Shown: piece after piece, positions 4,939 through 56,085 of the stretch | Layout of the letters: each line of letters begins with the position of its first letter | Numbering within the stretch: position 1 is the first letter of the stretch | Virus record (IMG/VR): IMGVR_UViG_3300045747_000054 | Coordinates: 62,001-126,000 of that record | DNA from: a virus | Direction: 5' to 3' (one strand) | DNA: 64,000 nt | Made by a program: the position numbers and the translations under genes | The notes under the pieces: model-generated | What the model was told of the DNA's origin: nothing | What the model saw: only the letters and a program-made list of their open reading frames with translations | Database searches by the model: none

Positions 4939-6147
4939 CTATTTCTTTTTTAAATCCATTTCCTTGCCATGCTTGTCTAGGACAACATAACGTCCACCGC
5001 CAACCTGACCTTTTGCCGCATAGTGAATGTGTACATGTCCTTTCTTATCGTGGACTCCTACACTCTTAATGGCAAGATGTTTTCCATCATCCATCTGTTC
5101 AAGATACCTTCTTGCCATGCTGTGTTCGTGATCGGCAGCGCGACGATAACCTTCTTTGATTCCTAATCTTTTCTTCTTGATGATTCTACGAATCTTGTCA
5201 AGAAGTGGTTCGTTGTCCCTTACTGGCTTTATAGGAGGAAGAACGTTACCATTGTGACGTTTGAATACTGCCATGCTTTCATCTAAGTTGTATTTTGCCA
5301 TGTATGATGTCAATCTCTCATGTGCTGCTGCTCTTCTGACAGACTTTTGCGTAACTCTCTTCTTGAATGGATGTTCTGTTCCGCAATTTCGGCATTTCTT
5401 TACAGGTGCCTTTAGTTCATCACTGTATACTCTATCAAAGATGTTGCCGCCACAATGCTTGTCGTTAGAACATGTCCAACCAGTCTGTTTTTCTTCCTTG
5501 TGAAGCATTCTCTTGATACCAAGACCGACAGCACCCCACTTGTCAAATGTCTTATTATCACTTGCTACGCTACTACGATATGCATCAGTCTTTGATTTTG
5601 CGGCTGCTCTAGCAGTCTGATCGGCAGCATCTGCCTGATCATATTTCGCAGCAGTCTTGGCATGAAGTGCCTTGTTCGGATGCTTCTTGCTGAAACTCTT
5701 CAATCTTGTTAACCTATATGCCTTTGCATGTAGTTTCGATGCATCTTTCGATGCAATAGCAGCATCAGTTCTCTTACCAGAATTATGCTTTTCTATGCTA
5801 CGTCTAACCTTGTTTCCAATTGCATCACCAATAGTACTTCCAACAAAATGTAGAACTGGAGCAGAAGCAAGTGCTGCTGCCGCTAATTCAAGGGATTCAT
5901 CCATAGCATGTCTTTCATATTCACTATAGTGTTTTGATGCACCATGTTCATTTCCAGAAGCATAATCAGTTGCTGCCGCATGAAGATGCCCGAACGCTTT
6001 CTCACCATATTTGGTGACAACTTTGTTCTTGATTCTTAGAGTTTTCTTGTGATCCTCTCCATGATTTCTAAGAGCATGGGTATATTCCCCGAATAGATCA
6101 TCGTGGAATTTTTCATCTAGATTTCGAAACTCTTTGAAGGTTCTCAT
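4939..6147 (-). CDS. Predicted internal head protein with capsid-targeting leader and zinc ribbon
   Basis: 402 residues starting MRTFKEFRNLDE, a variant of the T4 internal-protein leader with a gp21-type L-D-E site at residues 10-12. Further (I/L)-x-E sites occur at LDE 288-290 and IKE 330-332. A four-Cys zinc-ribbon-like set is at C225, C232, C252, C255. Most of the chain is Ala/Lys/His-rich helical sequence like other proteins in the 8.8-12.8 kb block. No enzymatic motif is recognised. It lies within the lysis region, between the holin candidate and the endolysin. Packaging in the head is inferred from the leader. Confidence 0.8.
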   Translation of the reverse strand: MRTFKEFRNLDEKFHDDLFGEYTHALRNHGEDHKKTLRIKNKVVTKYGEKAFGHLHAAATDYASGNEHGASKHYSEYERHAMDESLELAAAALASAPVLHFVGSTIGDAIGNKVRRSIEKHNSGKRTDAAIASKDASKLHAKAYRLTRLKSFSKKHPNKALHAKTAAKYDQADAADQTARAAAKSKTDAYRSSVASDNKTFDKWGAVGLGIKRMLHKEEKQTGWTCSNDKHCGGNIFDRVYSDELKAPVKKCRNCGTEHPFKKRVTQKSVRRAAAHERLTSYMAKYNLDESMAVFKRHNGNVLPPIKPVRDNEPLLDKIRRIIKKKRLGIKEGYRRAADHEHSMARRYLEQMDDGKHLAIKSVGVHDKKGHVHIHYAAKGQVGGGRYVVLDKHGKEMDLKKK

Positions 6148-6173: not shown

Positions 6174-6788
6174 TTATTGCAAAACAATCATTGCTCTGTC
6201 ATAAAATTCGCGTCTTTCCATCAATCCATTGACTCCACCATTGATTCTTTTGGTCAAAGTGACGAAATCTGGCTTATCTGCCCATTCGTTCAGATTGTTG
6301 GATTCCCAAAACCACTTTGCGGACATCATGGCACCTTCGATGGTTTCCAGATAGGCTGGATTGGCAATCAGGTCAATTCCCAATGATTTTCCACATTTGG
6401 TGTAATTTTCCTTTCCGGTGATCTGAATGAAACCCCTGCCACGATAGTTCCAGCCGTCTCCAGAGTCTTCAGGACCGTTTCCAAGCCTGTTGGCATATAC
6501 ACGGGAGGCTATCTTCTGTGGATTGCGAGCATAATCATGTACATTAGTGGCGTTGAAGTATTTTGAGAATATCTTGAGAAGTCCTGTATCTGAATAGTTC
6601 AGGTTTTCTACTGCCACACAATAACTACCAGATTCATGTGCTGTCTGAGCAATGAATGCAGCTAGACGCAATTTTGTATTCAATATACTAGAAGATAGAA
6701 CATTCAATTCTTTAACAATATCATCTTGTTTGAATTTGGTGTATTTTACTTCTGGAGTAATTTGAAGAAGTTGATCTTTTGTTACCAT
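6174..6788 (-). CDS. Endolysin, GH19 chitinase-like muramidase
   Basis: Cleaves host peptidoglycan glycan strands at lysis. The GH19 pattern is clear: TAHESG with putative catalytic Glu at 52, ENLNYS with second Glu at 61, then RGRGFIQITGKENY and later RINGGVNG. 204 residues, the usual size for a single-domain GH19 phage endolysin. No signal peptide or membrane segment is seen, so it needs a holin; the two-TM protein at 4690-4929 is the candidate. Its first bases overlap the next upstream small gene by 7 bases. Confidence 0.93.
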   Translation of the reverse strand: MVTKDQLLQITPEVKYTKFKQDDIVKELNVLSSSILNTKLRLAAFIAQTAHESGSYCVAVENLNYSDTGLLKIFSKYFNATNVHDYARNPQKIASRVYANRLGNGPEDSGDGWNYRGRGFIQITGKENYTKCGKSLGIDLIANPAYLETIEGAMMSAKWFWESNNLNEWADKPDFVTLTKRINGGVNGLMERREFYDRAMIVLQ

Positions 6789-8833: not shown

Positions 8834-11563
8834 TTACTGGCTTCTGGTTGTCAGTGTTGGTTCTACATCAACGGCATGTGCCTTTGATCCAGTTGCAGTA
8901 CGTCCACGCTTGTTTCCGAGATACTTCCTTCTCATTCTGGACTTGGTGCCTTCATCCTTCTCGCCAACCTTTAGTTCTTCTTCCACAGTCTCTTCCTTCA
9001 CGATTTTGTGAAGATGCTGGTGGAACATACGAGCAGTAGATCCTGGTGCAGTCTTGGACTTACGATATCCTAGTTCCTTCGCAAAGTCATGAAGACGCTG
9101 GACCTGATCTGATCTTAGGGTATGGAAATCCACTCCGCGTGAACCAGACTTTTCTAGAGCGGCTTCTGCTTCTGGCTTTGTAATTTTGGATTCTTCGACC
9201 TGTTCTACATCTTCGTTAGTTCTTGGTAATGCTTTTCCAGTTTTTCTATCGATCTTAGTACCATGCATAAGTCTTGCAACAATACGAGTTCCTAGACGAT
9301 CTATTGGACCTGTAGAATTAGCATGAACTTTTTCCCATGCCTTATCATCTTTTTTTACACTATCCACAGACTCTCCATAAGTTCTGCCTCTTCCCATAGA
9401 AGCACCCATCATTCCTACGAAATCACCCATGTGACTTCCACCGAATGACTTACGGTTATCCTGTGCTGCCGCCATGATCTCACCACGCTTGTGCTTCTCG
9501 GCGGCAGTGGCGATGTGTGACAATCTGCTCTTCTTTTCGGCATCAGAAAGTTCTGGCTTCTTGACAGTCTTTCCTGCCTGTGTCTTGGAGATCGTAGTCT
9601 TCTCGGCTGGCTTCACACCAGAACGTGCTGCAAGTCTTGCTTGCATTGCCTTGGAAAGCTTGCCACGCATTAGAGTTGCACTCTTGTTTCCGAAACGTGA
9701 TGCTTCGTGAATTCCACTAGCAATATCATCATACTTGCTTGCTGCCTTATTATGTGATCTTATCTTCTTTCGATCACTCTCTGATGGCTTAGAAAATTCA
9801 TGATCCATACGAATCTCTTTAGCAGCATAATCGTGATCTGCTGCACGGGAATCAGCAACTTTCTTGCCGTAGAATGGTAGGAATTTTCTCTTTAGCCTTT
9901 CAACACCTTGAGCCTCTGATAGTTCCTTAGAATGAATGTTGTAATAGGATGTTCCATGATTGTGTGTGATCACAACATGATCTTTACCATGCATACCAAT
10001 GCTATTTGGAGTATGACCAGCAGCAGATACTTCATCAAGTTCCACTTCCACACCTTCTCTGGTATAATACTTTCCAGTATGCTGATTGTATTCATAATCT
10101 CCAGTACGTGGAGCCTTATCTGATTCTTTTGGTTCGTCTCTCTTGATTTCTGTCTTTGCAAGTGCCTTGATCTTCTTCTTGAAGAACGAGAAACCTTCAT
10201 CAATATGGTTTACATCGTGTTCATATCCATGTGTCTTTAGTGTATGGAATACGTCATGACCATCACGCTTTTCCTTAGCCGCAATCATGTGATGATACGC
10301 AGAAACTTTACCAGGTCCGCGAGATCCCTTACTCACATGGAATGTGGTTAGATATGGGTGAGTATGAACTTCAATCTGGTGAAAATTGTCACTGTGCTTT
10401 GTGTGACTATATGTTGATGTGTTTCCATTAAAACGATTGCGAACATGGCTGGCTTTGAATACAGGATGCTTGATCAATGCTCTGAATATAGCCTTTGGAA
10501 CTGCATCATGAAGTTCTCTGTCAGTATTCAGTTTTACTGCTTCTGGTCTTTTGTATGGTTCGATTGATTCGTTGATTGCTTCATTATTTTCATGATCATA
10601 GGAACCAACACGAACATGCTTGCCATCAACAACCTTTAGTGCGCGTGTTGTCTTTGGAGATTCTGGATCATCACTTTTGAAAACCTTAGCACCTTTCTTT
10701 TCCATTTCTTTTCGCCATGTATCATGATCTTCGTTCACCTTGATCTTCTTTGCGAGCTTCTTGTTGGCTTTCCAAAGACCAGAGATTCTTGTGCCAATCT
10801 TCTTGGTTGGAGTATTCTCTGCATTGGTCTTTTCAATATAGGACTTTAGAGTACCTTTTGAGAGTTCATCAAGATTTTCTTCTGCCACTCTAGTAACAAC
10901 ACCATTCTTGATGGTTACTGGATTGCCATTGTGATCTGTCATGGTGTGCTTGATCTCGCCTTTATGAGAAACGACAGCCTTCACTGTCTTCGCGTATTGC
11001 TTGTTCAAGATCTTTGCGGTATCTTTTTTCATCTTATCGGCAGAAATAAGCTTTCCCTTCTGAGGCTTTCCCTTATACATGTCGTCGTCTTCGCGAGTTC
11101 CTTTGTATCCTTCTGAGTCATATTCAAGGACAGTTTCTTCAGCTATTCCATGTATCTGATTTTGAATATGATCTACTTCATTTACTGGTTTCTTCACACC
11201 ATTGATGATATCTCTCAAAGAACGAGGATCATATGGCTTCTTCTTTGGGCGAGTTGTTCCATCTTCATGACCCAATTCATGATTTAATTCAGATCTTTTG
11301 AAATTACTGCGACTCTTGCCGAATACATCACCACGATTTGCACCCCATGCTTCTGCTACAGGACGCTCCAACTGCTTTCCACCATTTCTTCTGTAATGCA
11401 ATACAGTAACGGCATCGTTGACCTGATCAGCATATTTTGAGTGTGCCGCACGATCACCCATTCCGTGGGCATTGTATCTTGCTTCACCAGCATCTTTTAT
11501 GATGTAGTGAAGTTCTGCGTCTGACTTGCTGTGGTATGGATGACCTTTTAGTGGTGTTCTCAT
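8834..11563 (-). CDS. Giant predicted internal head polyprotein
   Basis: 909 residues, very rich in Lys, His, Ala, Ser and Glu, with few long hydrophobic stretches. The N-terminus (MRTPLKGHPYHSKSDAELHY then a DAGEARYNAHG helix and VLHYRRNGG) is a compact module of its own. gp21-type (I/L)-x-E sites recur along the chain: IAE 140-142, LDE 231-233, then INE, IDE, LDE and LSE, usually at breaks between modules. LDELSKGTLKSYIEK at 231-245 is the same cassette that is repeated three times in the next upstream gene. I infer a prohead polyprotein cut into several packaged pieces. No enzyme motif is recognised. Confidence 0.8.
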   Translation of the reverse strand: MRTPLKGHPYHSKSDAELHYIIKDAGEARYNAHGMGDRAAHSKYADQVNDAVTVLHYRRNGGKQLERPVAEAWGANRGDVFGKSRSNFKRSELNHELGHEDGTTRPKKKPYDPRSLRDIINGVKKPVNEVDHIQNQIHGIAEETVLEYDSEGYKGTREDDDMYKGKPQKGKLISADKMKKDTAKILNKQYAKTVKAVVSHKGEIKHTMTDHNGNPVTIKNGVVTRVAEENLDELSKGTLKSYIEKTNAENTPTKKIGTRISGLWKANKKLAKKIKVNEDHDTWRKEMEKKGAKVFKSDDPESPKTTRALKVVDGKHVRVGSYDHENNEAINESIEPYKRPEAVKLNTDRELHDAVPKAIFRALIKHPVFKASHVRNRFNGNTSTYSHTKHSDNFHQIEVHTHPYLTTFHVSKGSRGPGKVSAYHHMIAAKEKRDGHDVFHTLKTHGYEHDVNHIDEGFSFFKKKIKALAKTEIKRDEPKESDKAPRTGDYEYNQHTGKYYTREGVEVELDEVSAAGHTPNSIGMHGKDHVVITHNHGTSYYNIHSKELSEAQGVERLKRKFLPFYGKKVADSRAADHDYAAKEIRMDHEFSKPSESDRKKIRSHNKAASKYDDIASGIHEASRFGNKSATLMRGKLSKAMQARLAARSGVKPAEKTTISKTQAGKTVKKPELSDAEKKSRLSHIATAAEKHKRGEIMAAAQDNRKSFGGSHMGDFVGMMGASMGRGRTYGESVDSVKKDDKAWEKVHANSTGPIDRLGTRIVARLMHGTKIDRKTGKALPRTNEDVEQVEESKITKPEAEAALEKSGSRGVDFHTLRSDQVQRLHDFAKELGYRKSKTAPGSTARMFHQHLHKIVKEETVEEELKVGEKDEGTKSRMRRKYLGNKRGRTATGSKAHAVDVEPTLTTRSQ

Positions 11564-11567
11564 TTGA

Positions 11568-12797
11568 TTATTCCTTCGCCTTCTTTTCTTTGTTTTTCTT
11601 CAGTGCTCTGCGAGCAAGATCACGGGCAGCGGACATTCTGGTGTGTTTTGCACCAGACTTATCTGTGATTGTATCAGGAGTGCGCTTGTGCCATCCAGAA
11701 TCCTTCATCCATTCGGCAACCTGACCAAGCTTATTAGTCTTCTTGGTCTTCACTGGTGCTGGAAGAGTTGCAGAGTAATCATTATTACTAGTGTTTCCAC
11801 CACTTAGATTATCTTCCTTGGTGAGTTCTTTCTTCTTCTGGCTATTGATTTCACGCTTCGCAGAAGCAAACATTTTTGCTTCTTTCTTTTCCTTGGCATA
11901 CTTCGCCTGAACTTCTGGTGGATTCCAAGAAACACTTTTCTTGACTTCATCAAGTTCTTCTCTATCGCCTCTATATGGCTTCTTATTTCCAAGAAGCTTA
12001 TCTCCTGCTGTAGCAAGACCTTTATATCTTTTTTGTGCCTTATTGATATGGTTGTCCCATTCTCCTTTACTCTTCGCAGTGTTCAAAGCAGACATATGAT
12101 TTGTTAAATCTTTGCCAGCCTTATCACGATATGAAACAAGTGTGGACTTCTTGAGTTCATCAATCTGAACTTCTTCCTTGGCAAGCTTTCCAGCAGCCTT
12201 CTTGATTCCCTGAACACGCATGAATGCCTTATGATCTTCCTTCTCTCCATCATCCTTGCCTTTCTCGTCATCTACATGAAGATGGAGTGCGTGCTTCCAG
12301 CCACCTTCTGATGCCTTGTCTACGGCACTATCTGATGCCTTCTTGATATACGAAGCAAGTGTAGACTTATTGAGTTCATCAATCTGAACTTCTTTCTTAG
12401 CAAGTTTATCAACTGCCACATGAACACCATGAAGTCTCTTGTCTGCGATATCAGCGTCTTTATTAGAAAGTTTTTCGTTGCCCCTCTCTGAATGTCTAGC
12501 AGAAGACGCAAAGTGGTGTACTGCATCTCGCGCCGCTGCCTTTGCATATGAAGCGAGTGTGGACTTCTTGAGTTCATCAATAGATTCTACATCTTCCTTG
12601 ATGTGACTGGTGGCAGCATTCAAGTGACTTGGCTTGCCAAAATGAGGATCTGCACAGGTTGCAACCACTCTGTTTACCATAGAGTTATCCGCATGTGGTT
12701 CTGTAGGCTTATAGTCATTCAGTTTTGCTGGATGTTCTGCCATGCATTTTGCGGCTGCATCTGCAATTGATCTATTTGTCTTTGAGAATATATTCAT
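11568..12797 (-). CDS. Repeat protein with three IDEL-K-STL-SY cassettes, predicted internal head polyprotein
   Basis: 409 residues. Three near-identical cassettes are at 73-88 (IDELKKSTLASYAKAA), 139-154 (IDELNKSTLASYIKKA) and 212-227 (IDELKKSTLVSYRDKA), with a weaker LDEV at 282-285. Each begins with an I-D-E gp21-type cleavage site and follows an acidic linker ending EVQ or DVES. Between them lie about 50 residues of charged helical sequence. The C-terminus is very basic. This suggests a polyprotein processed by the prohead protease into basic peptides. It is in one operon with the 909-residue protein. Confidence 0.8.
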   Translation of the reverse strand: MNIFSKTNRSIADAAAKCMAEHPAKLNDYKPTEPHADNSMVNRVVATCADPHFGKPSHLNAATSHIKEDVESIDELKKSTLASYAKAAARDAVHHFASSARHSERGNEKLSNKDADIADKRLHGVHVAVDKLAKKEVQIDELNKSTLASYIKKASDSAVDKASEGGWKHALHLHVDDEKGKDDGEKEDHKAFMRVQGIKKAAGKLAKEEVQIDELKKSTLVSYRDKAGKDLTNHMSALNTAKSKGEWDNHINKAQKRYKGLATAGDKLLGNKKPYRGDREELDEVKKSVSWNPPEVQAKYAKEKKEAKMFASAKREINSQKKKELTKEDNLSGGNTSNNDYSATLPAPVKTKKTNKLGQVAEWMKDSGWHKRTPDTITDKSGAKHTRMSAARDLARRALKKNKEKKAKE

Positions 12798-12800
12798 TTC

Positions 12801-13322
12801 TTATTCGCCTTTGAGTGTGGATTCGATCATCCATTCTAGTTTTTTGTGTGCGTCGATACGATCCTGTAGGAAATTCGACAATCCGACTTCTTCTGCATGT
12901 TCTGCTAATTCGAAACATTCTTTAAGGTTATACAGAAACACCTTATTATCAAATTCTAGTCTGTTCAAGAGTGTTACGGCACCAGTTCCACCTAGATTTC
13001 CTTCAATCGTGGAAAGATTCAAAAGATCCTTGATGTAAAGAGGAACCAGACCATTGATGATACGAATGCGTTCCGCAATGTCATCAAGTTCTTCATAAAC
13101 CTGAGTATAGACCTTCTCAAAGAATGAATGATACTGAGGGAAGTTGGATCCAACTATATTCCAGTGTGCCGAGTGGGCATCATAATAGAACACATAGCCA
13201 TTTGCAAGAAGAACTTTTAGTCTTTCAATCAAATGTGCGCGTGGGTCTGGAGTGAATGCCATAGCAGTTTCTACTGCTTCCTTCATGCTCTTGTTGATCT
13301 TGTTTGCGCTTAAGTAATTCAT
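12801..13322 (-). CDS. Dps/ferritin-like protein
   Basis: A Dps-family miniferritin, which in bacteria oxidises and stores iron and binds or shields DNA. The ferroxidase pattern is present: H53 in SAHWNIVG, H65, E69, D80 and E84 (LDDIAER), corresponding to E. coli Dps H51, H63, D67, D78, E82, with Asp-to-Glu at the third site. 173 residues is the normal Dps length. It has no canonical packaging leader. It sits between the internal-protein block and a P-loop protein, so a role in protecting incoming or packaged DNA is plausible but inferred. Confidence 0.9.
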   Translation of the reverse strand: MNYLSANKINKSMKEAVETAMAFTPDPRAHLIERLKVLLANGYVFYYDAHSAHWNIVGSNFPQYHSFFEKVYTQVYEELDDIAERIRIINGLVPLYIKDLLNLSTIEGNLGGTGAVTLLNRLEFDNKVFLYNLKECFELAEHAEEVGLSNFLQDRIDAHKKLEWMIESTLKGE

Positions 13323-13326
13323 GGTA

Positions 13327-14475
13327 TTATCCTATCTCTTCTGTTCTTATTTTTGTCGAGATCTTTTCTCTGAGTTTATCAAAGGAAGTTCCCTCGGCAG
13401 TCTGTCCCCAAGGTCCGACTAGACCAGAGTTACCAAGATTTACAGTATTGTAGAGTGGCTTGAGTTCGGTAGACCCCGGAAGAAGCTTCTTCTTTTTGAT
13501 CTTTTCGGCTTCTGCTACACTAGAAACACCCATAGATCCAACTGCAACAGAACCCGCTCTGTCATAGTTGGATGGTGTGTTGGTTACTTTGGCGACTTTT
13601 TTGGTGCCTTCTTTTTTGCTGCCGACTTTTTCTTCGCAGACTTCTTCTTTGGCTTTTTTGATGGAATTTCTAACGTGTCTATGTAATCCTTCTGCTGCGT
13701 AGGTTCTCTCGGAAGTTGAAGCGTTTGCAACACTCGTTCCTCCAGTTCTCTCAGTGGCTGGATTCTGTCCACACTTACAAGCCCCATTGCACGTTTTGCA
13801 GCGTGGCTTAGTTGCTTCATCAGCTTCTTGATAGGTTCTAACATTGTTTGTTCCTTGACCTGGTGTTATTGCTTTGGCAAATGCGGCAGTTTCGTCCGTG
13901 CCTACTTCCAACACACGTTCTGCAATCCATGCTAGTGCAGCTTCATTCTTAGGCATCTTTGAAAGAAATGCAGAGACAGTTTCTGTCAACTCTAACAGCC
14001 AACTTGCTATCTCTTTATTCTTCTGTTCGTTTACGTTTGAGAAGTTATTGGAATTATCGTAAATAGCAAAGGCATCAAACATCTCAGTGAATTGATGAAC
14101 GTTTGATAATGCACATTGATATTTATGCTTACGAACACTCTCATTAAATGTTTTTGCACCGCGTGATATCCTCTTGTCATTTCTACTCTTTGATTCCTCA
14201 TCGGTGGTATACACATAGATCATTGCAGTGTCATAACCCATAGATTCTAGGACTGCCTTGGATACGAGAACCTTATCTAGATTCTCTGCATTTCCATTGA
14301 CAATGACTGATGGAAAGCTATGCAATTCTTCAATGTTTGTTCCTTTAACAATGGCATTGAAAACTCTCTCCATAGAAACTTCTTTCAGATTATGCTCGTT
14401 TAGAGTCGAGTGAATGAGAAAGTCCTTCCCACTCCCTGGTCCGCCAACGAGGAATATTGCTTTAAAGTGATTCAT
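13327..14475 (-). CDS. P-loop kinase-like protein with long Cys-containing C-terminal region
   Basis: Walker A GGPGSGKD at residues 11-18, followed by a small NTPase domain of about 150 residues with TTDEESKSRNDKR typical of nucleotide/polynucleotide kinase or zeta-like folds. Residues about 175-382 are of different character: CKTCNGACKCG (C226, C229, C233, C235) may bind zinc, then a Ser/Gly/Lys-rich tail. IAE near residue 184-186 is a possible gp21 site. No packaging leader. The gene overlaps the CTS nucleotidyltransferase gene by 4 bases. A polynucleotide 5'-kinase role would fit its ligase and phosphatase neighbours but is not proven. Confidence 0.75.
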   Translation of the reverse strand: MNHFKAIFLVGGPGSGKDFLIHSTLNEHNLKEVSMERVFNAIVKGTNIEELHSFPSVIVNGNAENLDKVLVSKAVLESMGYDTAMIYVYTTDEESKSRNDKRISRGAKTFNESVRKHKYQCALSNVHQFTEMFDAFAIYDNSNNFSNVNEQKNKEIASWLLELTETVSAFLSKMPKNEAALAWIAERVLEVGTDETAAFAKAITPGQGTNNVRTYQEADEATKPRCKTCNGACKCGQNPATERTGGTSVANASTSERTYAAEGLHRHVRNSIKKAKEEVCEEKVGSKKEGTKKVAKVTNTPSNYDRAGSVAVGSMGVSSVAEAEKIKKKKLLPGSTELKPLYNTVNLGNSGLVGPWGQTAEGTSFDKLREKISTKIRTEEIG

Positions 14476-15932
14476 TTTCTTTTAACCGATAGTTTACCAG
14501 ATTTCATTGCTGTTTGAATTTTCGACATATGCTGTTGAGCTTCTTTCTTAGTAAAGGCAGATCCCAAATGTTTGTGGAAAGTATTTAGATCACCAGCAGA
14601 AGCTGCTGTTCGCATCTTGGTTCCAGACATTCCGTGACTTCTCTCTGAATTTTCTGGAGTATGAACATGAACCTCGTCAAAATGCTTGCCGTGCATTTCT
14701 TTGATTTTTCCGGCAGCAAGAGAGTGCTTCAACTTCTCGGCAAAATCCAGTCTATCCGCTCCGACTAATAGGTGTAGGACTTTCTTACCAGTCTTTGGAA
14801 GAGATGCATGTGCTGCGGCAATCGTCTCTCCACCAGACTTTACTACATGAGTATTTAGATCCTTGTGTCCCCATTGTTTATGGAGTATATCTGATCTTTC
14901 TTTTGGTGAATACAAGTCAGACTTGGATGATATTCCAATATGCTTTGTACCGGGAAGTTTCTTCATTGCTCCACCCAAATCTAGAGCATGACCCATGTGC
15001 GAAATAGGAGAAAATCCAGTCAATGGAACTACTGATGTATGATGTACTTCATCTGATTCTTTGATTAGGTCTTTTGTACCCAATGTTTTCTTCAAGTGCT
15101 GTAGGGCAGCGGTGTGATCACCTTTCTTCTTTCCCATGTCATCCTTGAATTTATCATAGATTTCTTGATGACGGCTAGGATTTATATGCTTCTTGATTAG
15201 GTCAGAGACTCCAACGAAAGAATGTACCTTCTTGTGGTTTGCATCTTTTCCGAATAGAGTGTGTGAAACTTCATCAGGATCATTTGTGCCGGGCTTGGAT
15301 TCATCGGTTCTTGAACGAAGTCCGTGAGTGATAGAGAATTTATGGACACTTCCACCTGCCGCATTCAAGAGTGTCTTGTGGTGCATTCCCTTAATACCAT
15401 GCTTGGTATCTTCCCAACTAGAACTGTGAGCAAACTGTTCACCTTTTGTTGGCTCGTCCTTGTGGTAATCTGCTGCTTCGAAATCGAACTGGTGATGGGC
15501 ACCATTATTATGCCTCATTACTGCCGACACTTCATTGCCATGTTTCTTAGTACCGACTACAGTATAATTACCAAACTTCTTACCTGTGGTAAGGTGCTTG
15601 GCAAGTGCTTCTTTGTGTTCTTTTGGAATCTGAGCGTCGATGTCACCAGTATTTGGCTTGTGGTGTGCATATTCTGCATCTGGAATGTGTTGATTCATCA
15701 AATGCTTGGTTGAACCGGCAAACGCCGATCCTGAGAATAATGCCTTCTTACCTTTTCCGAAAAGGTGTTCGCCGTGTTCTTTATGAAAAGAATCGTGTAT
15801 CGCGCCTAGTGTTTTGTGAATTTCAGCGGCAGTGCCATCTCTTGATTTTTCAGTGACATGAATTGGATCGGCACCTACTGCGCCAATTTTTATATTGCCA
15901 CCTTCTTTTAGAAATTGCTTAAATGTATACAT
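14472..15932 (-). CDS. Two-domain nucleotidyltransferase with capsid-targeting leader
   Basis: 486 residues. Leader MYTFKQFLKEG has an L-K-E|G gp21-type site. Residues about 55-160 look like a Pol-beta-type nucleotidyltransferase: GSAFAGST at 68-75, GDID with D97/D99, and a later FDFE. Residues about 298-450 look like a HIGH-superfamily nucleotidylyltransferase: HMGH at 312-315 and SGTKMR at 436-441 (the ISSTxxR-type motif). Between them I-K-E|S at 290-293 is another gp21-type site exactly at the domain boundary, so maturation could release two enzymes. Substrates are unknown. The gene overlaps its neighbours by 1-4 bases. Confidence 0.8.
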   Translation of the reverse strand: MYTFKQFLKEGGNIKIGAVGADPIHVTEKSRDGTAAEIHKTLGAIHDSFHKEHGEHLFGKGKKALFSGSAFAGSTKHLMNQHIPDAEYAHHKPNTGDIDAQIPKEHKEALAKHLTTGKKFGNYTVVGTKKHGNEVSAVMRHNNGAHHQFDFEAADYHKDEPTKGEQFAHSSSWEDTKHGIKGMHHKTLLNAAGGSVHKFSITHGLRSRTDESKPGTNDPDEVSHTLFGKDANHKKVHSFVGVSDLIKKHINPSRHQEIYDKFKDDMGKKKGDHTAALQHLKKTLGTKDLIKESDEVHHTSVVPLTGFSPISHMGHALDLGGAMKKLPGTKHIGISSKSDLYSPKERSDILHKQWGHKDLNTHVVKSGGETIAAAHASLPKTGKKVLHLLVGADRLDFAEKLKHSLAAGKIKEMHGKHFDEVHVHTPENSERSHGMSGTKMRTAASAGDLNTFHKHLGSAFTKKEAQQHMSKIQTAMKSGKLSVKRK

Positions 15933-16894
15933 TACTTACTTCTCGACTTGAATTTTTCTTTGTTTGAAGAATCGGCTTTATAGTCTCTGAACGTTTGTGA
16001 AGTGACCTTGAATCTTGGAGCATCTGCGTTCTTTTCAGAAGGATGAACTACAAGACCCTCAGTTCCAGAACCCCACTTTGGTTTGATGCTCTTGGATGCA
16101 ATATGACTGTCAACTTTATGAGATACTGCATGTTTGATTTGATCAAACTTGGCTACCTCTTTCATCTTCGCTTCTTTATTCGTCTTTGTCGTTCTTGATC
16201 TCAACAAGGTATGATCCAGTTTTTGGAATTTACTATGCTCGTCTTTGACACTGACATGGGATTGTTTGTGTTCGATCTTGTCATCATCGAAATTCATCTC
16301 ACTATTAGATAGGTGCTTCTTGTGATGTTCTATATCGACATGTTGGTTTTCTGGAAGCTTGGAATGAATTACGTACTTACCGACACTTCCCATGTGATGT
16401 GGATGATACGAGGTTCCTACGAACTTGATTTCATCTTTATGTTCTTCAGAAGGTCTTGAAAGTGGCTTGTAGAATGCCTCACCTTTGACTTTGACTTCCT
16501 TGCCGGTTCTGTGATATTCAGACTTCAAATGATGCTGTAATGCCTTATTATTGAGAAGTGTAGAATGAATGTGAGCAAAGGCATCGGCAGCGGTCGAATC
16601 ATATGGCTTACCAGTCTCTTTTGCTCTCTTCTTTGCTCTGTCATGAAAATCAGATGGTTTTCTCATTTTCTCTGACCCGGATCCAGAACTTTGAGAATAA
16701 AATCCATGTTCATCATGACCAAACTGGTGAGTCATTCCGTCAGTTTTTTCGGTAACATCATGAACATGAACTTTTCCACCTTTTACAAGGTTTCCAAATT
16801 GCTCATGAGACATCGAATGAATATGAGGTAAACCCTGTCTGATAGACTCAGACAAGACTTGGTTTTCTGATAGGAATGTCTTGAATGTCTTCAT
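15932..16894 (-). CDS. Nucleic-acid-ligase-like nucleotidyltransferase with capsid-targeting leader
   Basis: 320 residues from the ATG at 16894, which overlaps the upstream stop (TAATG); an in-frame ATG at 16915 would add seven residues before the leader and is unlikely. Leader MKTFKTFLSEN carries L-S-E|N. The covalent nucleotidyltransferase motifs are visible in order: motif I EKTDGM with Lys50, KGEAFY at 138-143 (motif III-like), EGLVVH at 279-284 (motif IV) and RFKV at 294-297 (motif V). This suggests an ATP-dependent DNA or RNA ligase. The chain is unusually His-rich. Substrate is unknown; packaging is inferred from the leader. Confidence 0.8.
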   Translation of the reverse strand: MKTFKTFLSENQVLSESIRQGLPHIHSMSHEQFGNLVKGGKVHVHDVTEKTDGMTHQFGHDEHGFYSQSSGSGSEKMRKPSDFHDRAKKRAKETGKPYDSTAADAFAHIHSTLLNNKALQHHLKSEYHRTGKEVKVKGEAFYKPLSRPSEEHKDEIKFVGTSYHPHHMGSVGKYVIHSKLPENQHVDIEHHKKHLSNSEMNFDDDKIEHKQSHVSVKDEHSKFQKLDHTLLRSRTTKTNKEAKMKEVAKFDQIKHAVSHKVDSHIASKSIKPKWGSGTEGLVVHPSEKNADAPRFKVTSQTFRDYKADSSNKEKFKSRSK

Positions 16895-17418
16895 TACATC
16901 TTTTCTATGTGCCAACGAACACGACCTTTGCGAACCTTTTTTTCTGGCTTGTCTGCTGAGAACATAACCTTTCTCTTTTTACCTAATAGAGCATTCTGAA
17001 CATGAGGATAGTCAGCAGGATTCTGTGGCTTTCTTCTTGCTTCAAAGATTGCTCTGTTTGCCTTGGCATAGTTTCTCATGATCACGCCAGCCTGACTGTT
17101 TGCTTCATTCTCAATGTCACTTCCAGTTGCTCCAGAATCGTGTTGGATACGATTATCTAGGTTCTGTTTGTGATGCACTAATTCGTGTGCAAGAGTCCTG
17201 AAAACGTCGGCAGTATGTCTTCCTGCAATGTTCACTTTGATAGAATGGTCACTCGGAGAATAACCACCAAACGATGCATTCTCCTGTGCATGTTCCTTGT
17301 CGTCTACAAGTTCAATGCTTGGAGGATTATCCAGACCTAGATGATTGCTGGCAAAGCCCACAAAATGATCAAGATGATCATGCACGGACTCGTTTAGATA
17401 TTGCTTGAATGTTTTCAT
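16894..17418 (-). CDS. HExxH zinc metallopeptidase-like protein with capsid-targeting leader
   Basis: 174 residues. Leader MKTFKQYLNES has L-N-E|S. The zincin motif HELVH is at 78-82, followed by HKQNLD, with a downstream SDIENEANSQAG helix (Glu103/Glu105) that could give the third zinc ligand as in gluzincin/DUF4157-like peptidases. The C-terminus is basic. It could process a host or phage protein after injection; the target is unknown. The gene overlaps neighbours on both sides by one base, so it belongs to the same operon as the ligase-like and HAD proteins. Confidence 0.8.
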   Translation of the reverse strand: MKTFKQYLNESVHDHLDHFVGFASNHLGLDNPPSIELVDDKEHAQENASFGGYSPSDHSIKVNIAGRHTADVFRTLAHELVHHKQNLDNRIQHDSGATGSDIENEANSQAGVIMRNYAKANRAIFEARRKPQNPADYPHVQNALLGKKRKVMFSADKPEKKVRKGRVRWHIEKM

Positions 17419-17603
17419 TACATCTTCTTGTATGTTTTCTTCTTGGCTACGCTTTTTCCAATAACAGTATTAGGTCTGTCTTCCGGCTTTGCATTTGCGT
17501 AATCATCCCAATGCTTTTCGTTTTCTCTGGCGCGTGCCATAAAAGCGTTCCACTTGGCTGTCTTGGATGATATTTCTGCTATGATCTCTTTATATGTCTT
17601 CAT
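17418..17603 (-). CDS. Short internal head protein with T4-like capsid-targeting leader
   Basis: 61 residues. MKTYKEIIAEI is the closest match in the window to the T4 internal-protein leader (MKTYQEFIAE), with I-A-E|I as the predicted cut. After cleavage a basic 51-residue peptide would remain, ending KKKTYKKM. Similar in size and charge to T4 IPI-type proteins that are injected with the DNA. No other function is recognised. Confidence 0.75.
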   Translation of the reverse strand: MKTYKEIIAEISSKTAKWNAFMARARENEKHWDDYANAKPEDRPNTVIGKSVAKKKTYKKM

Positions 17604-17604
17604 A

Positions 17605-18228
17605 TTATTCCCTATGGACTTTCACATGTCCATCGTGCTGGACATGAAATGCGTGAAACTTGACTTGTGGATGGTGCTTCTGTAATCCAAGAAAATGGTT
17701 TAGATTTTCCTTACTATCGTCATACAAAGACACTTTCTTGTACTTACCAGTATTTAGGTGATGGTGAATTATATCTGTTTTACGTTCGGCTACGGATTTG
17801 CCACCATCAGAGTTACCTGCACGATAGACATGGCTTCGATCTATGTCGATTCCATGCTTACGGAATTTGTCTAGGAACTTGTGTTTGTCATCGAAATCAG
17901 CACGGGCAGTGTTGATGATGACATGGTGGTTTGGCTTATCCTTGATGTTATTGTGGATAGCCTTGAACTTCGCAATCATGCCGTGAATAGGATCGGAAGT
18001 TTTATGGAAATGGTCGGCATTACGGAACTCATGGTAATCGTAATGGTGTCCAGCAGGTAGCTTATGAGTGTTATATTCCTGATTTGACAGGGCAGCTACG
18101 TGTTTGTCTCCATGCATGACATGGACTTTGGCATGGGTTCGAAAGAGGGTTTCATCGACATCGAAAACGTGCAGGTGTCCTGCATTTTCGGATTGATTTT
18201 CTTGTAAAAAGGCTCTAAATGTTATCAT
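17605..18228 (-). CDS. HAD phosphatase with capsid-targeting leader
   Basis: 207 residues. Leader MITFRAFLQEN has L-Q-E|N. HAD motifs: FDVDETLF with D23 and D25, NTAR (T107), Lys150 in ERKTD, and LYDDSKEN with D170/D171. This is the arrangement of small HAD phosphatases including polynucleotide 3'-phosphatase domains. Very His-rich, like the adjacent ligase-like protein. It is the first gene of the packaged-enzyme operon. The 53-base gap upstream holds a weak late-promoter-like CCTAAATA (around 18262-18269) and GGAGG. Substrate is unknown; an end-healing role alongside the ligase-like protein is inferred. Confidence 0.85.
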   Translation of the reverse strand: MITFRAFLQENQSENAGHLHVFDVDETLFRTHAKVHVMHGDKHVAALSNQEYNTHKLPAGHHYDYHEFRNADHFHKTSDPIHGMIAKFKAIHNNIKDKPNHHVIINTARADFDDKHKFLDKFRKHGIDIDRSHVYRAGNSDGGKSVAERKTDIIHHHLNTGKYKKVSLYDDSKENLNHFLGLQKHHPQVKFHAFHVQHDGHVKVHRE

Positions 18229-50446: not shown

Positions 50447-51811
50447 TTACTTCAAGTTGCTTACGATAAACTTGCGGTAGTAGAGGTTGCTGTTGTTGCT
50501 CAATGCGCCTGAACCCTGTGTGGTTCCCTGTGCGAATGGATTTGCAACGATTCCGTAACGGGTCTTGAAGCCAATCTTTGGCTGGAAGGTGTTAGGATCG
50601 ATTGCACGAACCATCTGTAGAGGAACGTATGGGCAGTAGAACAGACCAGCATCATACGCGACCGCACCCTTGTATCCGACGACGACATAATCTGCGCCTG
50701 ATACTGAGTATGGATCAACATAGACCTTTAGGCGACCGAATAGAACACCTGCGAAGGTATTTCCAGTGTCGTCAACCTGTAGACCAGTGTTGTTGCTTAG
50801 TGCTGAGTTGTAGTCAAGAAGTCCGCTCATCGCAAGGGCTGATGCCACATCGGTTGATGTGATGATGATGTTGCCCTTTCCACGACGAGTATCTTTCGCG
50901 ATCTTGTTAGCTTCACGCTCGATCTGGAAGATAAGACCCTTGTACTTTTCTACCTGCCAACGACCATCTGTATCTAGACCTGTTGCTAGGTTAAATACGC
51001 CCGGTGTGTTGGAGAACGCTGCGCCCGGCTTTGCAGTTGCATACACGGTGCGGACGACTTCACGGTTGATTTCAGCAAGAACTTCTGTTGAAAGAATATT
51101 TGCCAATTCCGTTTCTGCGTCTAGACCATGAACTGCCTTCAAGTCCTGTGCAAGTTCTAGGGTGTAGGATGCTGCTAGCGCACGGGTGTTTGCTGTTACA
51201 GTAACCTTTTCGATTGAGAAGCCCATCTGGTTCATTGTTGTACCAACGGATAGACCTTCACCAGTTCCGGTGTCGAATCCTTCACCAGTGTTCGCTAGAC
51301 CGAAGATAGAAGCATTGCTTGTACCTGGGTTAACGTTCGCATCAGGGTTGTTACCCGCAGTGAATGGTGATGTTGCGCCAGTACCAGAGAATGATACGTT
51401 TGCTTCGTTGTAGAACGCTTCTGGAGTTGCTGATCCTAGTGCTGCGCTTGTTGCGTTAGCATAGGTTGAGCGCATCGCGAAGATAAGACCTGTTGGACCA
51501 GTCATTGGCTGAACGCCGCAGATGTCATATGCCATTAGGTTAGGTAGTGAACGACGAACTAGGCTGATTAGGATTGGATCGAAACCGGCTACTGGACCAC
51601 CAGCAGTTGCTCCACCACCATATCCGCCCGCGCCTACGAAGTTGGATCCACCAGCTTCTGCAAGGATACCTGCTTCTTCACGAAGAGCGCGTTCCTGATT
51701 TTCTAGGACAATCGCAGTAACGGCACGGCGATATGGGTCAGTGATCTTAGCCATATCAGCGTGGTCCAATACTGGTGCCCACTTCTTTTGAATTGTTTCT
51801 GAGAGATACAT
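50447..51811 (-). CDS. 23: Major capsid protein gp23
   Basis: Forms the capsid hexamers. The N-terminal 52 residues are a propeptide: the first Gly-rich segment after LAE (residues 50-52) fits the gp21 cut AGIL-AE|AGG. Then MAYDICGVQPMTGPTGLIFA and SYTLELAQDLKAVHGLDAE are gp23 blocks. 454 residues (T4: 521, larger insertion domain). It is followed by a strong terminator, as in T4. Confidence 0.96.
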   Translation of the reverse strand: MYLSETIQKKWAPVLDHADMAKITDPYRRAVTAIVLENQERALREEAGILAEAGGSNFVGAGGYGGGATAGGPVAGFDPILISLVRRSLPNLMAYDICGVQPMTGPTGLIFAMRSTYANATSAALGSATPEAFYNEANVSFSGTGATSPFTAGNNPDANVNPGTSNASIFGLANTGEGFDTGTGEGLSVGTTMNQMGFSIEKVTVTANTRALAASYTLELAQDLKAVHGLDAETELANILSTEVLAEINREVVRTVYATAKPGAAFSNTPGVFNLATGLDTDGRWQVEKYKGLIFQIEREANKIAKDTRRGKGNIIITSTDVASALAMSGLLDYNSALSNNTGLQVDDTGNTFAGVLFGRLKVYVDPYSVSGADYVVVGYKGAVAYDAGLFYCPYVPLQMVRAIDPNTFQPKIGFKTRYGIVANPFAQGTTQGSGALSNNSNLYYRKFIVSNLK

Positions 51812-51849: not shown

Positions 51850-52995
51850 TTATACTGGGTTGGTTCTAGAGAGTGCCTTAACATAACTATCCATCGATGG
51901 AGATACATCTCCATTTGATGTTACAACAGGTTCCGCGCTTTCTGTAATGGCAATTGGATTGGAAGCCTGTTTCACTGTTTTTGTATCACTTGCGGTCTGA
52001 TTGAAATAACTCTCACGAATTATCTTGATCTTTCCTTCATATTCACCCTCTGTGGTGAACTCAACTCCCTCTGCGAGAGTCTTTACCTTTTCAGATTGTG
52101 TGGCAGTGAGTCCCTCACAAACTGATGCAATTATTTCAGCCTTACGAGCTTCGGTGATTGCAAGTGCAAGGCTGATGTTGTCATTTAGTGACTCATTCAA
52201 CTTACCCTTGAGTTCATCGATTTCTTCAGCCATAGCTTCTAGTACATCTACCTTCTCTTCTGGAACGTCGATATAATGTTCAGCAAATAGATTCTTGAGT
52301 CCAGCCATGAATTCTTCCATGATTTCAGTCTTTAGACCAGAATCAACGGCAACTTCATTTTCCTGTACCCATTCGTTAACCATATAGTTGAGGTAGGTAT
52401 CAACCTGTTCCTCAAGTTCTTGCTTAACTTCTTCAATTGTCTCTTCGGCAGCAGCAAGAATTTCTGATTCCATTTCTTCGATAACCTGTACTGCGCGAGC
52501 AATAACGGCACCTTCGAAAATGGTGGAAACCTTGGTGCGGAACTCTTCGGAAAGTTCTTCGCCAGAGAAGATTGCATCGATATCTTCCTTAGAACCGAGA
52601 GCAGCAAGCTTTTCCTTAAGCATTGCGACCTTTGCTGCATATGCAGCTTCGACTTCTTCGGCAGTCATTTCTTCGAAGATTTCTTCGTCTTCGACTTCAT
52701 CTTCTGCAATAGTCTCAGTACCTTCAACGTCATCTTCTGACACTTCGGCTTCTTCCTGTGCAAGCTTCTTCATTCCTTCCTTTGAATCGGCTGCTGGTGG
52801 AGTGCCTGGTGGTGTTGCTGTTCCGACCGCTGCTGCGGCACGGGAACCAACGTCGCCGCCTGATGGATCGGTCTGTGTAGATCCGCCAAGATCTACGACT
52901 TCTGCACCAATGGATGGCATTGGTTCTGAAGGCGCAGCGGCTCTAGACTTTGCGAGTACGTCAGCGGCAGCTTCTGCTAATGTTCGAACTTTCAT
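51850..52995 (-). CDS. 22: Prohead core scaffold protein gp22
   Basis: Scaffold degraded by gp21. 381 residues, highly acidic with long helices (EEVEAAYAAKVAMLKEKLAA; ILAAAEETIEEVKQELEE). The N-terminus MKVRTLAEAAADVL has a gp21-type LAE|A site at residues 6-8. Located between gp21 and gp23 as in T4; preceded by an exact late promoter. Confidence 0.92.
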   Translation of the reverse strand: MKVRTLAEAAADVLAKSRAAAPSEPMPSIGAEVVDLGGSTQTDPSGGDVGSRAAAAVGTATPPGTPPAADSKEGMKKLAQEEAEVSEDDVEGTETIAEDEVEDEEIFEEMTAEEVEAAYAAKVAMLKEKLAALGSKEDIDAIFSGEELSEEFRTKVSTIFEGAVIARAVQVIEEMESEILAAAEETIEEVKQELEEQVDTYLNYMVNEWVQENEVAVDSGLKTEIMEEFMAGLKNLFAEHYIDVPEEKVDVLEAMAEEIDELKGKLNESLNDNISLALAITEARKAEIIASVCEGLTATQSEKVKTLAEGVEFTTEGEYEGKIKIIRESYFNQTASDTKTVKQASNPIAITESAEPVVTSNGDVSPSMDSYVKALSRTNPV

Positions 52996-53030: not shown

Positions 53031-53675
53031 TTACAATTTTGAGATAAAATTCTCAAAAGCGCGTAGCTTGACTTCTTCCAGTTGCTTTGCTCTTGCTTTC
53101 TTAATGGTTTGCTGTAGGTAATTGACATCGGCTTCTTTTACGATTCCGTTGTCCCACACCCATTCTTTGCCTTCCATTATTCCTTCAACAAACGCACCCG
53201 GTGCTGATGGGTCAGCTACAATATCTGCCGCTGTGGCTAGATAGAAATCTTCCTGAACATGATTAATACCATTGATAGCCTTCAATGATCCCATTCCTCT
53301 TGATGATACTCCAAGCAATCCACCGCCTTCGATAATACCTTTTGCGATGCGACCCATTGGAGTATCAAGAATCTTTGCCTTACCTTCAAAAACGTTACCA
53401 TTTTGTCTTAGGTTGGTGATTAGATGTGATACACGCTCTAATCCAATTGCTGGTGTTTCTGGATGTCCAAGTTCTCCAAAAGCACGATTTTTGTTTACGT
53501 ATTCTTCGTTATAACGCTTGACTTCTCTCTCAAGAAGGTTACGAGCATATATTCTACCATTACGATTAGCCTTTTCGCTAACCAAAAATGGTCCCTGAAT
53601 AAAGAGAGTCTTTACGCCACCGACATCTTCGGTGAGATACTTGACTTCTTCAATTGTTTCTTTAATAAGCTTCAT
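53031..53675 (-). CDS. 21: Prohead protease gp21
   Basis: Serine protease that cuts after (I/L)-x-E in prohead proteins. Residues about 30-70: GPFLVSEKANRNGRIYARNL; AFGELGHPETP with the putative catalytic His; GVSSRGMGSL with the catalytic Ser. 214 residues (T4: 212). It is the enzyme expected to process the internal proteins of this window. It may cut itself (YLTED near residue 14). Confidence 0.95.
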   Translation of the reverse strand: MKLIKETIEEVKYLTEDVGGVKTLFIQGPFLVSEKANRNGRIYARNLLEREVKRYNEEYVNKNRAFGELGHPETPAIGLERVSHLITNLRQNGNVFEGKAKILDTPMGRIAKGIIEGGGLLGVSSRGMGSLKAINGINHVQEDFYLATAADIVADPSAPGAFVEGIMEGKEWVWDNGIVKEADVNYLQQTIKKARAKQLEEVKLRAFENFISKL

Positions 53676-53677
53676 TT

Positions 53678-53956
53678 TTACCTTAACCCCATTGATGCTC
53701 TACGTTTCAACGATCTCTTTCTTTTTATCAAAGCGCGTGCCATCTTTGCTCTACGCTTAACTTTTGCTCTTCTCGCTCCACGCTTTCTATGCATTCTTTC
53801 GCTAGTACTCATTCTTATCAACTTTCCACCGCGAATCGTATAACCTTTTACACCAGAAACTTTCTTTCTTCTCTGTACTTTTCCGTTACGTATTCTCGCT
53901 CTGATAATACGAATTCTTTGTACCTCAGTGAGCAAGAACTCCTTGAACGTCTTCAT
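53678..53956 (-). CDS. Basic internal/core protein with capsid-targeting leader
   Basis: 92 residues starting MKTFKEFLLTEV (L-T-E|V). After cleavage an 81-residue chain with very many Arg and Lys (RMHRKRGARRAKVKRRAK) would remain. It is placed where T4 has core protein genes (67, 68), near gp21. A DNA-condensing packaged peptide is the best inference. Confidence 0.85.
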   Translation of the reverse strand: MKTFKEFLLTEVQRIRIIRARIRNGKVQRRKKVSGVKGYTIRGGKLIRMSTSERMHRKRGARRAKVKRRAKMARALIKRKRSLKRRASMGLR

Positions 53957-54894: not shown

Positions 54895-56085
54895 TTATTC
54901 TTTTGGAAGCTTACCATTTGGACCATTGATATTGCGATGCTTGGCAATGTCCTTCATTGCTCTTTGAGTTGATGCTGGAACCTTACCTCTTTTTGTAAGG
55001 TTTGTTGTTGTTCTCCAAGTTCCTCTTAGACCACCAGATAGATCATTTTCTCCTTGGCGATATTTGCGAGTGCTCGGAGCATCCACAGCCTTGTCGGCAA
55101 CATCAGTTCCTTTCTTACCCCACTTTCTTGCAATCTTGTTTCTGAAACGATTGACTCTCTTTGAATCTTCCTTCGAAGCTTCATAGTCACTAGCAGTATT
55201 ATGTAACGAACGAATAGCGTTTACGGCAGTCTTTAGAGAAACTTCATCAACCTTTTCTACTTCTTCATTTCTACGGAACGGACCAGCAGATGGTTTATAT
55301 ACACTGGTTGGATCTTCTAACTTAGAAGGTTTTGGTGAACTCTTTATTCTACTCTTAAAGATCTTTTCGTGATACGCCTTTTCTTTTTCGGCACCAGATT
55401 CACGATCATTACTAAAATGATCACTCCATTCTGGCTTTGCACCTTCATGCAGATCTTCTCTGTGATGCTCTTCCCAATGGGATGCAGCTTCATCACGAAC
55501 ACGCTTAGGGAACATTTCATGCCATTTGCCAACGCCACTATATTCCTTATGATAGGATGCAGCAGCACGATCAGCATGATATCCCCAAAGCTTCTTTGCC
55601 TTTTCAGAGTCATAGACACCCTTGGCGTGCTTCTTCGCAAGATTCTTCATGATTGGTTCATGACTTGAACGGTGCAGGTGACTATCGTTATCTGCGTGAA
55701 GAACTAGTTCCTTCGCAGTGTCTGAAAGTTTGTGATATTCTTCGGATACTGTTTCTTCGTTTCTAGGATGATTCTTTTCCCAATTGGACTTTTCTTCTCT
55801 TCCCTTATTGAAACCATGAACAAAGGATTTCTTATGCTTTGAGTAGAGGTTGCTAATTTTGAATGCAGATTCGGCATCGTGATGACTATCGAATTCACGC
55901 CCTGCTCTAAATCCAGTTGCACGACCCCAATTGATACCTTCATCAACTCCAAAGATACCTTGTGCGAGTTCTTGCTTTCTTGATGCAAGTGCATCTGTGA
56001 CCTTCTCCGCAACAACTGCATTGAAAGTGTCTACGAAAGAATCTGCATCTTGCGCGTGTGCGAGTGTTACGAATTTAGTGGTCAT
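54895..56085 (-). CDS. Long core/internal protein with gp67-like N-terminus
   Basis: 396 residues. N-terminal MTTKFVTLAHAQDADSFVDT then FNAVVAEKV and ALASRKQELAQGIFG is a paralogue of the short protein encoded just upstream (56088-56255). The rest is charged, Lys/His/Glu-rich helical sequence similar in character to the 909-residue protein. A gp67-type core domain appears to have been fused to an internal-protein tail. Confidence 0.8.
   Translation of the reverse strand: MTTKFVTLAHAQDADSFVDTFNAVVAEKVTDALASRKQELAQGIFGVDEGINWGRATGFRAGREFDSHHDAESAFKISNLYSKHKKSFVHGFNKGREEKSNWEKNHPRNEETVSEEYHKLSDTAKELVLHADNDSHLHRSSHEPIMKNLAKKHAKGVYDSEKAKKLWGYHADRAAASYHKEYSGVGKWHEMFPKRVRDEAASHWEEHHREDLHEGAKPEWSDHFSNDRESGAEKEKAYHEKIFKSRIKSSPKPSKLEDPTSVYKPSAGPFRRNEEVEKVDEVSLKTAVNAIRSLHNTASDYEASKEDSKRVNRFRNKIARKWGKKGTDVADKAVDAPSTRKYRQGENDLSGGLRGTWRTTTNLTKRGKVPASTQRAMKDIAKHRNINGPNGKLPKE

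Follow-up and report, generated by a model that had tools for sequence, protein, structure and literature searches.

A recurrent predicted hairpin cassette behind a gp21-type site in core proteins and polyproteins of T4-like phages

We analysed a 64,000-nucleotide stretch of viral DNA (the window; bases 62001-126000 of the 178,732-base IMG/VR virus record IMGVR_UViG_3300045747_000054), which encodes two long proteins, p409 and p909 (Table 1), that share a recurring sequence cassette. The cassette is probably a mobile prohead-core module of T4-like phages, in which the prohead protease gp21 would cut after the glutamate of each site and free the modules as short peptides. Cassettes open at residues 73 (IDELKKSTLASY), 139 (IDELNKSTLASY) and 212 (IDELKKSTLVSY) of p409 and at residue 231 (LDELSKGTLKSY) of p909, and in all four the third residue before the proposed cut (P3) is I or L. 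A preliminary description of this DNA had placed cassettes at these four positions, and the translation and cassette matches bear it out; the IAE it gave at residue 140 of p909 is likewise present (residues 140-142).

The same description took a 12-residue sequence as the repeated element. The repetition is real and recurs in relatives, but the unit is a module of about 65-75 residues rather than the 12-mer. Alignment of the window cassettes with homologous regions from Caulobacter phage Cr30, cyanophages P-TIM68, P-RSM6 and S-SKS1, and one marine single-cell virus revealed a domain of about 60-80 residues, opened by the 12-mer, in which conserved ends (xxLDELSKxTLxSYIxKA and R..GIxKAxxKLAK) flank a variable middle (consensus (I/L/V)xE-[LIV]SKxTLxSYxxKA..R..GIxKAxxKLAK). 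Since it is present in relatives, the cassette is, judged from its sequence, a real domain and not a chance pattern. All 70 aligned cassettes matched phrog_5709 (best 1e-11), the sole consistent PHROG; a Pfam search of the cassette gave no consistently matching family, a PDB sequence search matched no solved structure, and a literature search for the cassette sequence found no paper. An AlphaFold model of p409 cassette 2 with its flanks gave a helical hairpin (H13-44, H51-97; body pLDDT, the predicted local distance difference test, about 80-90), in which a low-confidence linker gives way to helix 1 at the proposed cut, helix 1 beginning at the site itself; a PDB fold search with the hairpin returned generic helical hairpins only, at chance level (best E 0.8). 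Cassette bodies among the matches listed were basic (mean net charge +7.8, 99% positive). Pairwise likeness was 40.8% for cassettes within one open reading frame (ORF) and 40.6% between phages; as copies within an ORF were no closer, we rejected recent duplication as their origin, and the values fit an old repertoire that has been shuffled, not recent tandem duplication, so far as sequence likeness can indicate.

We investigated conservation of the proposed cleavage site in two scans of viral contigs, each returning at least 120 pieces. The first used the pattern DE.xKxTLGxY, with cassette presence then checked by profile search, and the cassette was found in every listed locus (at least 277 copies when the named phages and the window are counted in, with as many as six per ORF); the second was built from residues downstream of the cut alone, so that P3-P1 were not selected, and together the listed loci of both scans held at least 371 copies. 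One cassette per protein was the commonest case, and many proteins carried 3-6. Among the matches listed, to which all of the following counts refer, copies outside the first scan pattern had Glu at P1 in 131 of 131 and I, L or V at P3 in 130 of 130. In the second scan, P1 was Glu in all 122 distinct peptides and P3 was L in 55, I in 52, V in 14 and M in 1; P4 was variable, and P2 was mostly D (92), otherwise E (13), N (10) or another residue. P1 was never Asp, though Asp and Glu swap freely at P2. According to the excerpted text of PMC9026906, gp21 of T4 cleaves behind L/I-x-E; residues 8 and 10 (P3 and P1) of the T4 IPIII targeting sequence decide its processing, which Asp at position 10 inhibits without abolishing targeting. 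Conservation therefore sits on the residues the protease reads, and the earlier proposal that each cassette opens with a gp21-type site holds across phages at both of these positions.

The cassette also lies inside known core proteins. Six loci (L064, L095, L114, L038, L107 and L037) have it in gp22, within the variable N-terminal part, and gp67-like proteins of Synechococcus phage BUCT-ZZ01 and loci L069 and L051 carry it at their end; the T4 record describes gp67 as an internal-peptide precursor and states that gp21 degrades gp22. Occurrence in gp22, in gp67, in separate polyproteins and directly behind a capsid targeting sequence (CTS) agrees with the earlier suggestion that the cassette is transplantable. 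Gene 21 lay within the fetched piece (mean 9.3 kb) in 59 of the 176 listed loci (both scans and the named phages), and a cassette ORF lay within 500 bp of it in 47 of the 176, near-duplicate contigs kept, where about 4 would be estimated for a random gene in a ~150-kb genome. Every cassette-bearing record above 100 kb among the matches listed (19/19: Cr30, P-TIM68, P-RSM6, S-SKS1, BUCT-ZZ01, 13 IMG/VR records and the window phage) encoded a gp21-family protease (PF03420), and the five carriers lacking a PF03420 match were fragments below 76 kb. Across ~85,000 prokaryote genomes the second pattern gave one match, on contig JAFMJQ010000165.1 (L202; deposited as a Thermoleophilia metagenome-assembled genome); because gp20, the cassette gene, gp21, gp22 and gp23 follow in order, this contig is in all likelihood a piece of T4-like phage DNA binned with the wrong genome. 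The preliminary description had named, as what would refute it, a cassette that is common where gp21 is absent; this was looked for among these matches and not found. The cassette was also looked for, and not found, in the gp21 phages T4, S-PM2, Syn9, P-SSM2, HTVC008M, phiM12 and S-CREM1.

Cassette polyproteins encoded beside gene 21 at eight loci (L048, L065, L076, L081, L086, L094, L103 and L202) make up a distinct gene family in the gp67 position; many have an N-terminal domain in common (M[A/K].[ST][FL]K..[LIM].E...SxDEQKFxDKHxVxK), and some a C-terminal one as well (..MLDFAIRHRGE / EILGFAREAL). The polyproteins of L008 (11422-13038), L009 (9859-12879) and L012 share a small module (EAKVDxGRSxxGKxxxRNxRxxG..RGVK) and a second one (CWxGYKxxGxKxxGxxVPNCV) also present in L106; these extra modules may be further shuffled core modules.

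In p409, [ILV]xE sites lie at residues 68, 75, 141, 214, 284 and 362, cassette starts are spaced by 66, 73 and 70 residues with 78 residues to the last site, and no site falls within the three modules. Besides its cassette, p909 carries PVNE, GIAE, RVAE, KVNE, AINE, HIDE, ELDE, ELSE, GIHE and other sites. Predicted main-module fragments of the two proteins are 45-80 residues long with net charges of -1 to +9, and one predicted 7-residue p409 piece has a charge of -4. Neither protein gave a gp22 or gp67 match in a Pfam search, and a whole-protein search of viral contigs with p409 returned no relatives, because only the cassette is conserved.

Table 1 Features of the window (a slash within a sequence in this table marks the proposed cut).
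Feature	Position	Strand	Basis
p409, 409-aa cassette polyprotein: three full cassettes and a degenerate fourth start (ELDE/VKKS, residue 284)	11568..12797	-	ORF, cassette matches, site list
p409 cassette 1, residues 73-141, IDE/LKKSTLASY to next IDE	12375..12581	-	Translation, alignment
p409 cassette 2, residues 139-214	12156..12383	-	Cassette match, alignment, site list, AlphaFold model
p409 cassette 3, residues 212-284	11946..12164	-	Cassette match, alignment, site list
p909, 909-aa long basic protein, one cassette and further (I/L/V)xE sites	8834..11563	-	ORF, site list
p909 cassette, residues 231-278, short form	10730..10873	-	Translation, alignment
gp22 scaffold (CASP)	51850..52995	-	PF25623 1.9e-71
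gp21-type prohead core serine protease	53031..53675	-	PF03420 Peptidase_S77 5.3e-33; phrog_207 head maturation protease 4e-74
gp68-like basic core protein, CTS-like start MKTFKEFLLTE	53678..53956	-	Sequence, motif; weak PHROG scaffold match E 0.012
Protein in gp67 position between gp20 and gp21, degenerate cassette start VEKVDEVSLKTAV	54895..56085	-	Gene order, motif, sequence
402-aa basic protein, CTS-like MRTFKEF	4939..6147	-	ORF, motif
486-aa protein, CTS-like MYTFKQFLKE, cytidyltransferase-like C-terminus	14472..15932	-	Motif; phrog_3041, 2e-11
327-aa protein, CTS-like MKTFKTFLSE at residue 8 (likely true start)	15932..16915	-	Sequence, motif
174-aa metalloprotease-like protein, CTS-like MKTFKQYLNE	16894..17418	-	Weak Pfam and PHROG metalloprotease matches, motif
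61-aa protein MKTYKEIIAE/ISSKTAKW, CTS-like then cassette-like start	17418..17603	-	Sequence, motif
207-aa protein, CTS-like MITFRAFLQE	17605..18228	-	Sequence, motif

The minus strand of the window carries a T4-like head cluster (gp23 at 50447-51811), whose major capsid protein has T4-like cyanophages as nearest named relatives (~60% identity). Its gp21 is presumably the processing enzyme for the cassettes. An alignment of gp22 sequences with and without the cassette showed that gp22 of the window phage lacks it, whereas relatives carry it in the variable N-terminal part. Neither Pfam nor PHROG gave a match for the protein in the gp67 position; beyond its gene come those for the portal, tail tube, tail sheath and large terminase (named from gene order and sequence appearance). 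Elsewhere in the window, 6174-6788 encodes a candidate endolysin (Chitinase class I / GH19-like; PF00182, 8e-11).

CTS-like starts (M-[KRIY]-T-[FY]-[KR]..) were found in seven window proteins, compared with 0.27 expected by composition; six of the genes lie with p409 and p909 in the 4.9-18.2 kb block, and the seventh is the gp68-like gene beside gp21. Two more ORFs fit the loose search pattern without resembling a CTS. Elsewhere, CTS-like starts occurred in 18 of 183 cassette ORFs and 33 of 890 control ORFs among the matches listed. In the 61-residue protein of the window and at locus L118 (MKSFKAHIIESAEEVNELSKKT), a cassette-like start follows immediately on a CTS-like one. The 486-residue protein of the window is cytidyltransferase-like at its C-terminus, and P-TIM68 and Cr30 also have a cytidylyltransferase gene, just ahead of their cassette gene. 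Directly upstream of p409, between it and the CTS-tagged genes, 12801-13322 encodes a Dps/ferritin-like protein (PF00210, 6e-17), which might be packaged or protect DNA; in the 382-residue product of 13327-14475, the N-terminal half is kinase/Zeta-toxin-like (PF06414, 6e-6), and the C-terminal half, separate and charged, contains several E-rich sites.

These results suggest how the system would operate. Each module would be a ~65-residue, usually basic helical hairpin behind a gp21 site, (I/L/V)-x-E, placed singly or in strings of one to six in gp22, gp67 and dedicated polyproteins such as p409 and p909. Precursors bearing cassettes would be built into the prohead core. As the head matures, gp21 of the phage would cut after the Glu of each site, freeing the hairpins as separate short peptides, which may stay with the DNA like the internal peptides and internal proteins (IPs) of T4 or leave like most core fragments. 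By this scheme p409 and p909 would enter the head; p409 would need no CTS of its own because the cassette, being built into gp22 and gp67, may itself confer core affinity. The preliminary description, partly supported, was thus largely right on the cassette and its site; cutting at the cassettes, packaging and the fate of the peptides are the steps at which we go from pattern to proposal.

Several observations weigh against this interpretation. Neither p409 (start MNIFSKTNRS) nor p909 (MRTPLKGHPY) begins like a CTS, and both lie ~40 kb from gene 21. The lack of an N-terminal targeting sequence also weakens the earlier claim that the two genes make many small basic head peptides, of which the basic character stands for the cassette family as a whole, but p409 fragments reach only -1 to +9; most T4 core fragments, moreover, leave the head (excerpted text of PMC9026906). 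The Val found at P3 (about 12%) is outside the T4 L/I rule, and P1' is always L, I or V, so that a hydrophobic P1' plus S..TL could partly reflect helix capping. A literature search found no virion proteome of a cassette phage; S-CREM1, the subject of a virion-proteome paper, lacks the cassette. Two candidate lines of evidence were dropped. The number of [ILV]xE triplets was not above composition in p409 (6 against 4.1 expected) and showed a modest excess in p909 (16 against 10.1), and the evidence for the sites is their position and conservation rather than their count. Depletion of (I/L/V)xE within cassettes (54 observed against 90 expected), considered as protection from cutting, was not specific, because control motifs of no relation to the site showed equal or stronger depletion. 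Finally, gp21 is to our knowledge common to all T4-like phages, and co-occurrence alone is therefore weak evidence.

The chief alternative, which we regard as unlikely, is that the hairpin is an uncut domain binding gp22, DNA or the shell in the prohead, with (I/L/V)xE kept for folding or binding. Such a domain would agree with the hairpin being the conserved part, with its basic charge and with its occurrence in core proteins, and in the alignment L-S-x-x-T-L resembles a helix N-cap with a hydrophobic staple. However, conservation is strictest at the P1 Glu, which stands where the linker meets the helix and is never Asp among the matches listed, the surrounding core proteins are gp21 substrates in T4, and an uncut domain does not readily explain why both restricted upstream positions are those that gp21 reads in T4, as described in the excerpted text of PMC9026906. 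We consider it rather improbable that the cassette serves targeting and not liberation, as an internal CTS equivalent that brings cargo into the core and is only removed from it by cleavage. That the T4 CTS ends in the same motif (same excerpt, PMC9026906), that some cassettes stand directly behind a CTS-like start (as at L118) and that single cassettes are commonest would fit, but the conserved cassette body lies downstream of the cut, whereas the T4 CTS lies wholly upstream, and the many proteins with 3-6 copies hold more than targeting alone needs.

A function outside the head, with p409 and p909 as ordinary cytoplasmic or tail-associated low-complexity proteins and the gp21 link reflecting T4-like ancestry only, seems very improbable. 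Their distance from the head genes and the presence of gp21 in all T4-like phages speak for it, as does the position of the gene near nucleotide-metabolism genes in carriers such as P-TIM68 and S-SKS1. Co-occurrence with gp21 could stem from shared ancestry, but the insertion of the cassette into gp22 and gp67 and its adjacency to gene 21 could not, and the CTS-tagged neighbours in the window are a further point against a non-head function. We prefer the mobile core module cut by gp21.

A broader scenario, in which many aquatic T4-like phages share a shuffled repertoire of self-contained units of site plus hairpin and build true polyproteins from it, and gp21 cuts these into differing small basic peptides destined for packaging alongside the DNA and for injection (a modular peptide arsenal evolving by module exchange), is conceivable but doubtful, and we offer it tentatively. 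The core-module reading, if right, would identify large proteins of aquatic T4-like phages now annotated as hypothetical, would supply a cassette by which new prohead-protease substrates could be predicted from sequence alone, and would show the T4 head core evolving by swapping ready-to-cut modules rather than by slow divergence. With a short portable site plus domain, head-packaging ideas proven for the T4 CTS would become directly testable in laboratory phages by means of cassette fusions.

Proteins of this gp21-processed core kind are already known; the widespread shuffled module itself was previously unnamed. Its PHROG counterpart, phrog_5709, is an unannotated family of 676 positions for which neither function nor modularity is recorded. 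The inner-body and ejection proteins of phiKZ and SPN3US (gp175/gp245-type proteases) are similar in that many head proteins carry short Glu-terminated motifs cut at maturation, but they belong to a different phage clade and are large packaged proteins, and the excerpted text of PMC9026906 mentions no such module among them. T4 IPI-IPIII resemble the cassette proteins as basic internal proteins behind (I/L)xE, and several neighbours of p409 and p909 are CTS-like; their CTS, however, is an N-terminal propeptide upstream of the cut, whereas the cassette is mostly internal with its conserved body downstream. The T4 core proteins gp67 and gp22 share core location, multiple gp21-type L/I-x-E sites and fragments released at maturation, and homologues of both contain the cassette; T4 has no repeated cassette, whereas cassette phages string together a discrete domain with its own site, in up to six copies and also in separate polyproteins.

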